From NCBI GenBank assembly GCA_002238565.1, contig MPMP01000002.1, forward strand, positions 1-64,000: a DNA stretch of 64,000 nt, given 5' to 3'. The position numbers and the translations under genes were made by a program. Numbering within the stretch: the stretch's first letter is position 1; the number at the start of each line of letters is the position of its first letter. The DNA comes from Albidovulum sp. bin36 (GTDB lineage: Bacteria > Pseudomonadota > Alphaproteobacteria > Rhodobacterales > Rhodobacteraceae). This document shows, piece after piece, positions 2,922 to 61,829 of the stretch. The notes beneath the pieces are model-generated. The model was not told the DNA's origin. It saw nothing but the letters and a program-made list of their open reading frames with translations, and made no database searches.

Positions 2922-3013
2922 TCAAACCTCCCGAAATTGCGGATGCCGCGTTAGCGTATGGACCCGATTTCAATCATGGATTTCCAACGATGTCGAGCGG
3001 CGATTGAATGAAA

Positions 3014-3134
3014 GGTGTAGCCCAAAATGATTGATTGGGCCGAATGTGAGCTTCCGACCTTCCAGCCCATAAAGAGGCGCGCTGCTATAGGAATACTTTC
3101 TCGCATCGCTTTGCAACAAGATTGAGATACACCC
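3014..3134. repeat. Dispersed ~121 bp repeat, copy A (MITE-like)
   Basis: Matches copy B at 59990-60113 with six substitutions and one 3-base indel (CAT present once here, twice in B). The ends form an imperfect inverted repeat: GGTGTAGC at the left and GATACACC at the right. A hairpin GCCCAA/TTGGGC lies inside the left end. The minus strand keeps an open frame through the element (QSDARKYSYSSAPLYGLEG). No target duplication is evident. Flanks outside the element do not match those of copy B. Confidence 0.85.
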
Positions 3135-3234
3135 CTTTTCCCTTGGCGCCTTGACTGGGGTTATGGTCGCCGCTATCGCCGTGGCCAATGGGAAGGCTCC
3201 AGCAAAGCCACCCGAAGCCGTAAGGAGGCGAAAG

Positions 3235-3555
3235 GTGAATAGTACGATCTGGTTGTCCTACGACCTCGGGGTGAGCGGAGACTACGAAGGGATCTATTCG
3301 TGGCTTGAGAATCACGGTGCAAAGGAATGTGGTTCGAACGTCGCCTTCCTGAAGAACTACGAGTTCGACGGCGACCTGCTGGAGTTCCTGAAGACGGATG
3401 TCTGCGAGGCGGTCACGCTGAACCGGCGTTCGCGCATCTACGTCATATTCAATGACGACGGCCGCACGCGAGGCCAATACCTGGTGGGAAAACGAAAATC
3501 TCCGCCGTGGACTGGTTTCGGGGATGAACTGGAGCAGGAATTGGATGGAAACTGA
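3235..3555 (+). CDS. Small Cas2/VapD-like (ferredoxin-fold) protein, probable partner of PIN nuclease
   Basis: 106 residues from a GTG at 3235, chosen because AAGGAGG sits six bases upstream; the ORF track start at 3151 has no such site. The order beta (TIWLSYDL), helix (GDYEGIYSWLENHGAKECG), beta (SNVAFLKNYEF), helix (LLEFLKTDVCEAV), beta (SRIYVIF) and a final strand (GQYLVGKRK) looks like the ferredoxin-like fold of Cas2 and VapD. That is my inference from pattern, not a match. I know similar hypothetical proteins next to PIN genes. It shares one base (TGATG) with the PIN gene, so the two are translationally coupled. It occupies the position of an antitoxin but looks like no standard antitoxin. 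Confidence 0.75.
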   Translation: MNSTIWLSYDLGVSGDYEGIYSWLENHGAKECGSNVAFLKNYEFDGDLLEFLKTDVCEAVTLNRRSRIYVIFNDDGRTRGQYLVGKRKSPPWTGFGDELEQELDGN

Positions 3556-3977
3556 TGGTTGGTCCGGAGCGAGTGCTGGTCGATTCGGGGTTCTTCATCG
3601 CGCTGTTCAATGAGCGGGACCAGCATCACGAATCCGCGCGCCGGCTGGAAAAATGGCTTGATTTCATGCCGATCGTTCTTCCTTGGCCTATCCTGTACGA
3701 AACGGTGAACACGCGCCTTGCGCGGCGCCCGGCGAACCTGGCGAGGTTCGGTGCGATTGCACGTTCGCCGGAAACGGCATTGCTGGATGACTCGCTCTAT
3801 AGGGAGGAATCGTTTGCAACCGTGCTGGCGCAGGACGCCAATGTCGGGCTGAGCTTGGTCGATGCTGTTCTCTGCAACATCATTGAAGACGCAAACGTAG
3901 CCATATCCGCAATGCTGACGTTCAACGAACGAGACTTCCTCGCGGCCCCTGCCACCAGTATAACGTCGAGTTGCTAA
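3555..3977 (+). CDS. PIN-domain ribonuclease (VapC-like toxin candidate)
   Basis: 140 residues. The four acidic positions expected of a PIN nuclease are visible: D10 in VLVDSGFFIALF, E49 in LYETVNTRL, D103 in SLVDAVL, and D127 in FNERDF. PIN proteins cut RNA with Mg2+ or Mn2+; VapC toxins usually cut tRNA or rRNA. Its start overlaps the stop of the Cas2-like gene by one base. Longer members of this type are also annotated simply as PIN-domain proteins, so a toxin role is inferred from the operon layout. No DNA-binding antitoxin of the AbrB, RHH or Phd class is nearby. Confidence 0.85.
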   Translation: MVGPERVLVDSGFFIALFNERDQHHESARRLEKWLDFMPIVLPWPILYETVNTRLARRPANLARFGAIARSPETALLDDSLYREESFATVLAQDANVGLSLVDAVLCNIIEDANVAISAMLTFNERDFLAAPATSITSSC

Positions 3978-4430: not shown

Positions 4431-4758
4431 CTGAATTCGTCAAGTTTGTGATTGATTTACGGATGAACAGGGCGGGCGTTGGCAGAGATGTTACTCAGTG
4501 CCCGAGGGTGTAAACCAATTTGGTTGAAAAGGGGGTGCGGGAAAGATTGCCAAGGAAGGCCGCCGCTTTGAATGAAAGATTTGAATTGGGCTCTTCAATT
4601 CAAATCAATGCGATGCTTCCAAGGCGCGCTGCCGGCTTCGAGATCGCCGCCTCGACCGGAATCGCGCTCGCAAAAAAACGCTTGCAATGCATTGTCCGCG
4701 CCTGTAATTGGTTCGCTTCATCTCGTCGTCGCCGGTCATCCGGTAATTTATGCGGACA

Positions 4759-57967: not shown

Positions 57968-58877
57968 CGCGAATTCCGCTTGTCTTGTGAAGGAACCAGT
58001 CAACTACGAAATTCACCGCAACCGTCAGAAGAGCGATCGCGCCGGCTGGAAGAAGCGGCGTTACGCCGGCCCTTAGGTCAAACTTGGCAAACTGGATCAG
58101 ATTGGCCGTTTCTCGCACCATCGTGCCCCAGTCGGCAGTGGGAGGCTGAATACCGACGCCAAGAAAGCTAAGCGCCGCGATAGTCAGGAAGACGAAGCAG
58201 AATCTTAGACCGAATTCAGCAACCAGCGGAGGCATGATGTTGGGCAGGATTTCCCGCCTCATGATCCAGCCGAGACCTTCGCCGCGCAAGACTGCCGCCT
58301 CGACATATTCCATGACCGCCACATTGATCGCCACCGCCCGCGTTACCCGAAACACGCGAGTGGAATCCAGAACTGCAATGATAATGATCAGCGAACCGGC
58401 CGACGGGCCGACGATCGACAGCAGCATAAGAGCAAAGATCAGACTGGGAATTGCCATCAATACGTCGACGCCTCGGCTGAGCAGCTGATCCAGCCAGCTT
58501 CGATTGATAGCGGCAACCAAGCCTAGCGCTCCCCCGATCAAGAAAGCTAGGAGAGTTGTCAGAAATGCGATTCCTATCGTGTTTCGGGCGCCGTAGATCA
58601 AACGGGATAGCAAATCACGGCCAATTTGGTCGGTTCCGAGCCAGTGATCCGACGACCAGGGCGCGTAGGGATTCGGAAGAACTTCCGCCTCTCCATAGGG
58701 AGCGATCAAGGGCGCAAAGAGCGCAAGAACGATGTAGAATACGATAACGACTAGACCGATTATCGCCGTTGGCGGCGCTTTTTTGAGTTCGACCCATGTC
58801 CTTTGCAGACGCGTCCGGCGCATGCGGACGCTGCCAACCTCCCCCGCGGCGGAATATGAAGTGTTCTTGTCGGTCAT
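57957..58877 (-). CDS. DppC-like ABC transporter permease
   Basis: 306 residues. An N-terminal OppC_N helix (TAIIGLVVIVFYIVLALFAPLIAPY), then LGTDQIGRDLLSRLIYGARNT, a typical DppC phrase, and the binding-protein-dependent permease core (GVDVLMAIPSLIFALMLL, EAAVLRGEGLGWIMRREILP NIMPPL). Its first codons overlap the DppB-like stop by four bases. It pairs with the DppB-like protein in the inner membrane. Confidence 0.93.
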   Translation of the reverse strand: MTDKNTSYSAAGEVGSVRMRRTRLQRTWVELKKAPPTAIIGLVVIVFYIVLALFAPLIAPYGEAEVLPNPYAPWSSDHWLGTDQIGRDLLSRLIYGARNTIGIAFLTTLLAFLIGGALGLVAAINRSWLDQLLSRGVDVLMAIPSLIFALMLLSIVGPSAGSLIIIIAVLDSTRVFRVTRAVAINVAVMEYVEAAVLRGEGLGWIMRREILPNIMPPLVAEFGLRFCFVFLTIAALSFLGVGIQPPTADWGTMVRETANLIQFAKFDLRAGVTPLLPAGAIALLTVAVNFVVDWFLHKTSGIRDEQ

Positions 58878-59851
58878 TTTGGATGGAGAAGCCTGGGATT
58901 GGTGGCGATTCCAATCACGTCGGCAATAAGGTTCAGAAGAATGTAGGTGGCGGCGAAAATCAAGGCGCAGGCCTGCACCACGGGAATGTCGCGCGAACTG
59001 ACGGCGTCAACCATGAGCTGTCCAATGCCGGGATAGACAAAAACGACTTCGACCACGACTACGCCGACTACGAGATAGGCGAGGTTGAACGCGGTGACGG
59101 TTGCAATGGGCGCCCAGGCGTTTGGCAGCGCATGAAAAAGGATGACCCGCATCGGGGATTCTCCCTTAAGTTGCGCCATCTCGATATAGGGAGAGGCGAG
59201 TAAATTGATTATGGCCGCGCGCGTCATGCGCATCAAGTGCGCCACAATTACAAGCGTCAGCGTAAGCGAGGGCAAGGCGGTTTTATATACGCGCTCGCCG
59301 AAACTCATGCCTTGCTGCACATCGGCCAAGCTCGGGAATACGGCCCAGAGCGTGCCGAGCAGGAGAACGAGAATGTAAGCGACAAAGAATTCGGGAAACG
59401 AAATTGTCGTCAATGTCGAGGCGTTGACGATACGATCATAGTACGAATTCCGCCACAGAGCCGCAGTTATTCCAAGAATCAGCGCTAGTGGAACAGCGAC
59501 CACGGCTGTCATGCCGGCGAGGAACAGCGTGTTGGCAAGTCTTGGCGCAATCAGTTCGGCAACAGATCTGGAACGATCCACTCCCGACGCGGCCCGACCG
59601 GAAAAGGAAGTGCCGAAGTCGCCGGTCATGACTGAACCGATCCAGTCGAAATAGCGGATGTAGGAGGGCTGATCCAATCCAAGCTCCTTCCTAAAAGCCG
59701 CGACCGTTTCCGTTGTAGCAGCCTGCCCCAGCACGGCTTCGGCGAAGTCGCCTGGAAGAAACTGGATTGATCCGAATATAATAAGTGAAACGACAAACAG
59801 AGTTAGGAGGCCCAAGAGCAAGCGTTTAATAATTGTCGATACAACTGCCAT
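58874..59851 (-). CDS. DppB-like ABC transporter permease
   Basis: 325 residues. IIKRLLLGLLTLFVVSLIIFGSIQFLPGDFAE opens it, with FRKELGLDQPSYIRYFDWIG and FGTSFSGR, all standard DppB. A core EFFVAYILVLLLGTLWAVFP and the loop IEMAQLKGESPMRVILFHALPN follow. First gene of the minus-strand dpp operon, with its start facing the binding-protein gene across the divergent region that contains repeat copy B. Confidence 0.93.
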   Translation of the reverse strand: MAVVSTIIKRLLLGLLTLFVVSLIIFGSIQFLPGDFAEAVLGQAATTETVAAFRKELGLDQPSYIRYFDWIGSVMTGDFGTSFSGRAASGVDRSRSVAELIAPRLANTLFLAGMTAVVAVPLALILGITAALWRNSYYDRIVNASTLTTISFPEFFVAYILVLLLGTLWAVFPSLADVQQGMSFGERVYKTALPSLTLTLVIVAHLMRMTRAAIINLLASPYIEMAQLKGESPMRVILFHALPNAWAPIATVTAFNLAYLVVGVVVVEVVFVYPGIGQLMVDAVSSRDIPVVQACALIFAATYILLNLIADVIGIATNPRLLHPK

Positions 59852-59989
59852 TCTGTTTCCTTCTATGGTCGCCTTCGGCCAAACGAAGCGACCCGAAACG
59901 CAGGTATTATAACCTCTGGAATGTTGGATGTAAAATCAAGGCAATGCCGCCGCCATGAGGGTGAACGCAGGCGCCGGGCGGTCCGGGCG

Positions 59990-60113
59990 GGTGTAGCCCA
60001 AAGTGGTTGTTTGGGCCGAATGTGAGTTTCCGACCTTCCAGCCCATCATAAAGAGGCGCGCTGCTATAGGAATACTTTCTCGCATCGCTTTGCAACAAGT
60101 TTGAGATGCACCC
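59990..60113. repeat. Dispersed ~124 bp repeat, copy B (MITE-like), in divergent promoter region
   Basis: About 95% identical to copy A at 3014-3134. The ends pair as an imperfect inverted repeat: GGGTGTAGCCCAAAGT at the left and GGGTGCATCTCAAACT on the opposite strand at the right (12 of 16 match). A hairpin GCCCAAA/TTTGGGC with a seven-base loop lies at the left end. The minus strand is open through the element (QSDARKYSYSSAPLYDGLEG). It lies 105 bases before the binding-protein start and 138 bases from the DppB-like start. Confidence 0.85.
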
Positions 60114-60218
60114 GGGCCGGGCTTTCGACTTTGCTTTTTCGAGGCAATAGTGTAAACTCCTACTGAAAGGCGCACGACAACCAGATGCAGCGCCTATCCA
60201 ACGAAAAGGAGTATAGTT

Positions 60219-61829
60219 ATGAAGTCCAGTGCTAAGCGCCACCTTGAGAAGCAGACTCTCAAGCTTCAGCGCGGCCAGATTTCGCGCCGCCAGTTCGTTC
60301 GTTCAGCGGTGACTGCCGGCGTGGTTCTGCCAACCGCGCTAAGCCTGGCCGATCAGGCCATTGCCAATACGCCGTCGATGGGCGGACACTTCAAAGCCGG
60401 GCTTGGTCACGGCTCTACGACGGACTCGCTTGATCCGGCAACCTATGAAAACGGGTTCATGACCATGGCTTCGTTTTCGCTATACAACCATATGACCGAA
60501 GTCGGGCCCGACGGCCAATTGCGACCGGAACTGGTAGAAAGCTACGAAGCGACGCCGGACGCAAAGAATTGGATTTTCAAAGTCCGTTCAGGAGTGGAAT
60601 TCCATAATGGCAAGACACTTGACGCCGAAGATATCGTCGCGTCGCTCAACTATCACAGGGGACCGGACTCTAAATCGGCAGCAAAAGGCAATCTTTCCGG
60701 CGTTGAGGTACTCCGCGCCGATGGCGACAATGTGATTGCCGAGCTGAACGAAGGCAATGCCGACTTTCCAGTTCTGCTCAGCGACTATCATTTCACCATC
60801 CGACCATCCTCGGAAGGAACAATCGACCCGACATCGCCAATAGGCACAGGCCCATACTCGTACGTCAATTTCGACCCCGGCGTCCGATTGGAAGGCGCCC
60901 GCAATCCAAATTATTTCAAGCCTGACACTGCATTCTTCGACAGCATTGAAATCCTGTCGATCATTGACGTGACGGCGCGCCAGAATGCTGCGCTAAACGA
61001 CGAGGTCGATGCGATCGACCGGGTGGATCCCAAGACCGTAGCGCTTCTCAGTCGAGCGCCGCACTTGGCCATACTTGAAACGACCGGCACGCTCCACTAC
61101 ACTTTCCCGATGAGAGTCGACACGGCTCCGTTCGACAATTTGCATCTCCGCACCGCACTGAAGCTTGCGGTGAAGCGACAGGAACTGGTTGACAAGATCC
61201 TTTTCGGCCACGGGGCGCTCGGCAATGACCATCCGATTTCGACGGCCAATCAATTCCATGCATCGAACATTCCGCAAAGGGAATTCGATCCTGACATGGC
61301 GAGGCACCATTATCAGCAGTCCGGTCACAGCGGCCCGATCCAACTCTCGGCCTCTGATGCGGCTTTCGCCGGCGCCGTCGATGCAGCGCAGTTGATCGCA
61401 GCGTCTGCTGCCGAGTGCGGAATTGAAATCGAAGTAATTCGCGAACCGTCAGACGGCTACTGGTCGAATGTCTGGAACAAAAAGCCTTGGGGCGCCTGCT
61501 ATTGGGGCGGACGACCGACCGAGGACTGGATGTTCTCGTCGGCCTACATCGCTGAAACTGAGTGGAACGACACGGCCTGGCGGGATACCGAAGGTGCGAT
61601 AAAGTTCAACCAAATCGTCGTACAGGCTCGTTCCGAACTCGATTCCGACAAGCGGCGCGCTCTCTACGAAGAGGCGCAACTTCTGATTCGCGACGACGGG
61701 GGCGCGCTGGTCCCGATGTTTGCCAATCACATCCACGCGCTCAACAGGCGCATCGGCCATTCCGACGATGTAGCTGCAAATTGGCAAATGGACGGGTCCA
61801 AGGCGACCGAACGCTGGTGGTTCGTATAA
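60219..61829 (+). CDS. Oligopeptide-type ABC transporter binding protein (SBP_bac_5) with Tat signal
   Basis: 536 residues, AAGGAG upstream. The N-terminus carries a twin-arginine motif and hydrophobic stretch (ISRRQFVRSAVTAGVVLPTA), so it is exported folded by Tat. The body is family 5: LDPATYENGFMTMASFSLYN, FKVRSGVEFHNGKTLDAEDI, GTGPYSYVNFDPGVRLEGARNPNYF, PFDNLHLRTALKLAVKRQEL. It ends at FV after WQMDGSKATERWW. Divergent from dppBC-DF, it should feed that transporter. Ligand unknown, with peptides, opines or polyamine-like amines possible. Confidence 0.92.
   Translation: MKSSAKRHLEKQTLKLQRGQISRRQFVRSAVTAGVVLPTALSLADQAIANTPSMGGHFKAGLGHGSTTDSLDPATYENGFMTMASFSLYNHMTEVGPDGQLRPELVESYEATPDAKNWIFKVRSGVEFHNGKTLDAEDIVASLNYHRGPDSKSAAKGNLSGVEVLRADGDNVIAELNEGNADFPVLLSDYHFTIRPSSEGTIDPTSPIGTGPYSYVNFDPGVRLEGARNPNYFKPDTAFFDSIEILSIIDVTARQNAALNDEVDAIDRVDPKTVALLSRAPHLAILETTGTLHYTFPMRVDTAPFDNLHLRTALKLAVKRQELVDKILFGHGALGNDHPISTANQFHASNIPQREFDPDMARHHYQQSGHSGPIQLSASDAAFAGAVDAAQLIAASAAECGIEIEVIREPSDGYWSNVWNKKPWGACYWGGRPTEDWMFSSAYIAETEWNDTAWRDTEGAIKFNQIVVQARSELDSDKRRALYEEAQLLIRDDGGALVPMFANHIHALNRRIGHSDDVAANWQMDGSKATERWWFV

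Follow-up and report, generated by a model that had tools for sequence, protein, structure and literature searches.

The short element that occurs twice in the window (the whole 64,000-nucleotide stretch of DNA that was analysed, from contig MPMP01000002.1 of Albidovulum sp. bin36) is very probably a 122-bp non-autonomous MITE that derives from an insertion sequence (IS) of the ISKra4 group (prokaryotic Mutator-like, p-MULT 4) and tends to insert upstream of promoters. The MITE carries neither a transposase nor a usable ORF, and it does not itself code for anything functional. The original prediction, made from the window alone, had favoured a MITE mobilised in trans while leaving room for a small conserved ORF, a transposase scrap or a structured RNA, and had named the lack of further copies, or of sharp ends, as what would speak against the MITE. 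Both further copies and sharp ends were found, and the many dispersed copies, their inverted repeats and 9-bp target duplications, and the presence of the parent type in the same genome support the reading as a MITE that would be mobilised in trans.

Searching the whole 5.6-Mb genome with the element returned 36 matches, 30 of which are near full length and six partial. The near-full-length copies show 88-100% identity, with a mean pairwise identity of 93.5%, and they fall into at least two subfamilies. Their consensus is 122 bp long with the sharp ends GGGTGTA...TACACCC, terminal inverted repeats that are perfect over these heptamers (GGGTGTA/TACACCC) and imperfect across ~20 bp. When the copies were aligned together with their flanks, every copy began and ended at the identical base, and the flanks diverged there. 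A 9-bp target duplication accompanies 21 of the 30 copies, being perfect in 17 and carrying one mismatch in four (the second copy of the window, copy B, among them); by our own arithmetic, chance alone would give a 9-bp match with no more than one mismatch at about 1 per 10,000 sites. A recognisable duplication is missing in the other nine copies. The same sequence recurs unchanged in three copies (L012, L014 and L015) at different loci, each with a perfect duplication that differs from the others, indicating that transposition was fairly recent. Two copies on contigs C103 and C136 (L022 and L026) belong to 1.3-kb stretches, MITE included, with 92% identity to each other, and are a single insertion copied via segmental duplication. 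Five of the 30 insertions lie inside ORFs of more than 200 aa, as judged from ORF-based gene calls in which such ORFs may or may not be genes.

The origin of the MITE can be traced to larger elements in the same genome. Scanning the genome with the terminal sequence identified several other elements that share GGGTGTA ends. The two ends of one of these, a 1692-bp IS (L051:4707-6398), align to the left ~62 bp and the right ~62 bp of the MITE, and in this alignment the two halves of the MITE meet at an AAGAG overlap. The MITE would thus have arisen by a deletion between the outer ~62 bp of each end of such an IS. The transposase of the L051 element is decayed, and its minus-strand reading ends in DFMDWKVGLSQAA-stop. 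The MITE retains a trace of this C-terminus, which in copy B lies as follows:

60004 to 60051 (approximate), minus strand: non-functional remnant of the transposase C-terminus; FMGWKVGNSHSAQST in the MITE consensus, DFMDWKVGLSQAA-stop in the parent

Within this remnant of ~45 bp, the minus-strand FMGWKVG of the MITE matches DFMDWKVG at the end of the L051 transposase. The earlier idea of a transposase scrap is therefore correct insofar as one minus-strand frame holds a remnant, but this is not the frame that had been singled out.

A second IS, at L035:9952-11656, is complete, with a length of 1705 bp, a 555-codon open frame and flanking gattgatgg duplications, and it is the most promising source of a functional transposase in this genome. 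The C-terminal parts of both transposases match the NCBIfam ISKra4 model (E 8e-50 for L051 and 7e-52 for L035), although both fragments alone score below the curated cut-off; against ISLre2 the same two transposases match more weakly (5.5e-11 and 2.1e-18). Across the genome the ISKra4 model has 24 matches, two of them above the curated cut-off. Pfam returned a UPF0236 match for the L035 IS and no match for the L051 transposase. The parental transposase itself has 48 matches in the genome, most of them decayed. Many of the ISKra4-type ends are located no more than ~500 bp from the end of a contig (for example on C63, C82, C107, C113 and C139), which suggests that the assembly broke at these repeats and that copy numbers are underestimated.

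A 437-bp element (L050:9445-9881) is a larger internal-deletion derivative that keeps both ends, and it is an intermediate of the expected kind. With only ~79% identity between the left end of the MITE and the surviving parent copy at L051, the MITE probably descends directly from a sister of that element; no intact copy of this exact direct parent was found in the genome. Moreover, the MITE shares the first 13 nt of its left end (GGGTGTAGCCCAA) with the second IS type (F2, the L035 type), a match that counts against naming one particular mobilising transposase.

Both copies that had been recognised in the window, with unrelated flanks, are real. Their boundaries had been placed one base short. 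The identity of ~95% first given for the pair is close when the gap is ignored, and BLAST gives 93% counting the gap. Copy B and its surroundings comprise the following features:

59989 to 60113, plus strand: MITE copy B, 125 bp, the 122-bp consensus plus a CAT insertion
59980 to 59988, no strand: left target-site duplication of copy B, GGTCCGGGC, matching the right flank at 8 of 9 positions
60114 to 60122, no strand: right target-site duplication of copy B, GGGCCGGGC
60131 to 60136, plus strand: candidate -35 box TTGCTT, 17 nt past the right end of copy B, fitting the ISKra4 target rule
60153 to 60158, plus strand: candidate -10 box TAAACT, at a spacing of 16, upstream of the gene at 60219
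60219 to 61829, plus strand: ABC-transporter solute-binding protein (SBP_bac_5), downstream neighbour of copy B
58874 to 59851, minus strand: ABC transporter permease (BPD_transp_1), divergent neighbour of copy B

The CAT insertion is private to copy B, being absent from the other 29 aligned copies. As had been proposed, copy B lies in a divergent promoter region, between the permease and solute-binding-protein genes and with a candidate -35 box beyond its right end. The corresponding features of the first copy, copy A, and one isolated IS end elsewhere in the window are these:

3013 to 3134, plus strand: MITE copy A, 122 bp, with no recognisable target duplication
3151 to 3156, plus strand: candidate -35 box TTGACT, exactly 16 nt past the right end of copy A
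3174 to 3179: TATCGC, a weak -10 box behind this TTGACT
4506 to 4571, plus strand: isolated end, ~66 bp, of a parent-type ISKra4 element (F4 end), sharing 87% identity with the corresponding end of L050

In copy A the first G of the element is replaced by A, and the copy has lost its target duplication. Its promoter candidate lies upstream of a small ORF, after which comes a gene that matches a PIN domain below threshold. These two occupy positions 3235 to 3977, directly downstream of copy A, and are possibly a toxin-antitoxin pair.

The placement of both window copies relative to candidate -35 boxes recurs across the family. An outward-facing TTGAC lies 16-17 nt from an end in 10 of the 30 copies, at exactly 16 nt in eight and at 17 nt in two. 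Compared with random genomic positions, as opposed to intergenic ones, the 10 copies with TTGAC at 15-17 nt stand against 0.16 expected (never more than two in 1000 random sets), and the looser TTGA/TTGC occurs at this distance in 18 of 30 copies against 1.7 expected. With regard to a mere intergenic bias, 10 of the 14 outward TTGACs found 9-54 nt from the ends sit at 16-17 nt, and this clustering at one offset argues against it. In addition, the -10 scores behind the TTGACs at 16-17 nt exceed those behind other genomic TTGACs (0 of 20,000 resamples were as high), so it is probable that promoters lie here and that TTGAC is more than a recognition word. For some 12-20 of the 30 sites, no clear promoter lies where the rule would place it. 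The orientation of the MITE relative to the promoter is mixed, in that either end may face it. Five other ISKra4-type elements in the genome (L046, L049, L054, L043 and L039) obey the same rule, with TTGAC at 16-17 nt.

This target rule is one that has been published for the family. Insertions of ISKra4-group elements are found upstream of sigmaA promoters, which may adjoin either side of the element; the promoter signal lies 13-17 bp from the ends, the duplications are 8-9 bp long and the inverted repeats 18-39 bp (PMC3942029, Guerillot et al. 2014). The MITE shares with them GGG...CCC ends, inverted repeats of ~20 bp, 9-bp duplications and a position upstream of sigmaA-type promoters that may adjoin either end, and the parent transposases in this genome match the ISKra4 model; it differs in having no transposase and a length of only 122 bp, and its inverted repeats, while within the published range, are imperfect. 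The threshold of PMC3942029, promoters 13-17 bp from the inverted repeat in more than 20% of sites, is exceeded with 10 of 30 sites for TTGAC and 18 of 30 for TTGA/TTGC, as scored by our TTGAC search in place of that study's promoter model. The TnGBS ICEs and the ISLre2 family (p-MULT 3) resemble the MITE in inserting 15-17 bp upstream of -35 boxes (PMC3942029). However, they do so in one orientation, with IRr by the promoter, whereas the MITE uses both ends, as published for near-symmetric ISKra4 elements, and ISLre2 fits the parent transposases less well than ISKra4. ISKra4 and ISLre2 elements also favour positions 50-250 bp from genes (PMC9208149). The agreement between the target rule seen here and the published ISKra4/TnGBS rule provides independent confirmation of the family.

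Tight spacing between the copies and -35 boxes could also be produced by selection, if copies were retained as upstream regulatory modules that offer a binding site or an outward -35 element and if target choice played no part in the spacing. Consistent with such a role, each end of the MITE bears an outward-facing hexamer resembling TTGAGA or TTGGGC. The same 16-17-nt spacing is seen in the genome for full-length IS and for other MITE families, however, and the spacing rule is known for the transposase from unrelated species (PMC3942029). The mixed orientation to the promoter and the involvement of differing, apparently unrelated genes likewise tell against retention as modules, which we judge to be very unlikely.

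A promoter-upstream MITE of the ISKra4 group would work as follows. Since both terminal inverted repeats are kept, an ISKra4-type transposase could cut and insert the MITE in trans. Insertion duplicates 9 bp and, as the statistics show, prefers sites that place an end 16-17 nt upstream of a -35 box, in either orientation. The MITE would then sit at about position -52, leaving the core promoter intact and replacing the DNA upstream of the promoter. With the core promoter spared, the cost of insertion would be low, and insertion may detach promoters from upstream regulation. A wider proposal is that the MITE and its sister families amount to genome-wide insertions ~52 nt upstream of transcription starts, rewiring several genes at once. 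This we consider unlikely; if true, rewiring would work through replaced activator sites or a supplied outward -35 element.

We also considered whether a small minus-strand ORF, the QSDARKYSYSSAPLY frame, is what is kept and spread, as four of the six substitutions between copies A and B had been reported to fall at third positions of this frame. Codon constraint was assessed in all six frames over the 30 copies, with a context correction for the QSDARKYSYSSAPLY frame. The third-position pattern fails at this scale, where 12 of the 20 distinct substitutions within QSDARKYSYSSAPLY alter a residue. Across the whole frame, 27 of 61 distinct substitutions are silent against 17 expected, with a nominal p of 0.004 that becomes ~0.03 after allowing for six frames, and 28 of the 30 copies keep the frame open. 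Against an ORF, the frame is lost in the other two copies, it has no start codon, it spans both inverted repeats, and in the parent IS its equivalent contains a stop upstream of the transposase. The true transposase-remnant frame is unconstrained (10 silent substitutions against 15.8 expected). The silent excess, which falls in minus-strand frame 0 (59989 to 60113) and not in the transposase-remnant frame, survives the context correction; it is a small unexplained signal, at most weak, and we do not take it as evidence of a protein. A conserved ORF is thus not convincingly supported, and we regard it as extremely unlikely.

A structured RNA or cis-regulatory leader has an equally slender chance of being correct. 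The inverted-repeat ends can pair into a hairpin, and the terminal hairpin that had been read as a separate constraint consists of these paired repeats. Shuffled sequences fold as well as single copies do (z -0.92 and -0.56), the 30-copy alignment contains one compensatory cell among ~1000 and yields no covariation-supported conserved structure, and an Rfam search of the locus gave no relevant match. Furthermore, copies are found to both sides of promoters and ahead of the -35 boxes, which places them outside the transcript that would be regulated.

Beyond its host the MITE was absent from 60 relatives, including the only other species of the genus, and from ~385 genomes sampled across the class, bar one chance-like 23-bp match. 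Pattern scans of genome, viral and plasmid sequence collections did not find the element, and a related-locus search with the parent transposase confirmed no relatives. In the sister species, which lacks the element, the orthologous interval is only ~69% identical (coding parts), too diverged for a clean empty site.

An earlier description of an ISKra4-group MITE was not found in the open-access papers searched, which is weak evidence that such a MITE is novel. MITEAba12 is reported to be likewise short, non-autonomous, IS-derived and present in several copies (PMC6382973); it is a separate element of Moraxellaceae. What marks the present MITE among bacterial MITEs is its ISKra4-type parent together with the promoter-spacing rule. 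That rule had previously been read from full elements of the superfamily, and its presence in a protein-less element of 122 bp implies that it travels with the ends and the transposase and not with other IS cargo. The 30 sites constitute a natural record of promoter positions in an organism without mapped promoters, and so tiny a donor makes it easier to test whether the transposase contacts RNA polymerase, as has been suggested.

The genome contains other short elements with related features. A second short family of 141-154 bp (L043:419-559, L040:4618-4758, L039:9800-9953 and L047:4444-4584) has ISKra4-like ends, GGGTGTARCCCAGATT, and 9-bp duplications. A third short element of 192 bp (L048:671-862) has GGGTGCAGTCCAA ends and the duplication gacggcgag, and an element of ~191 bp at L041:9859 is related to it.
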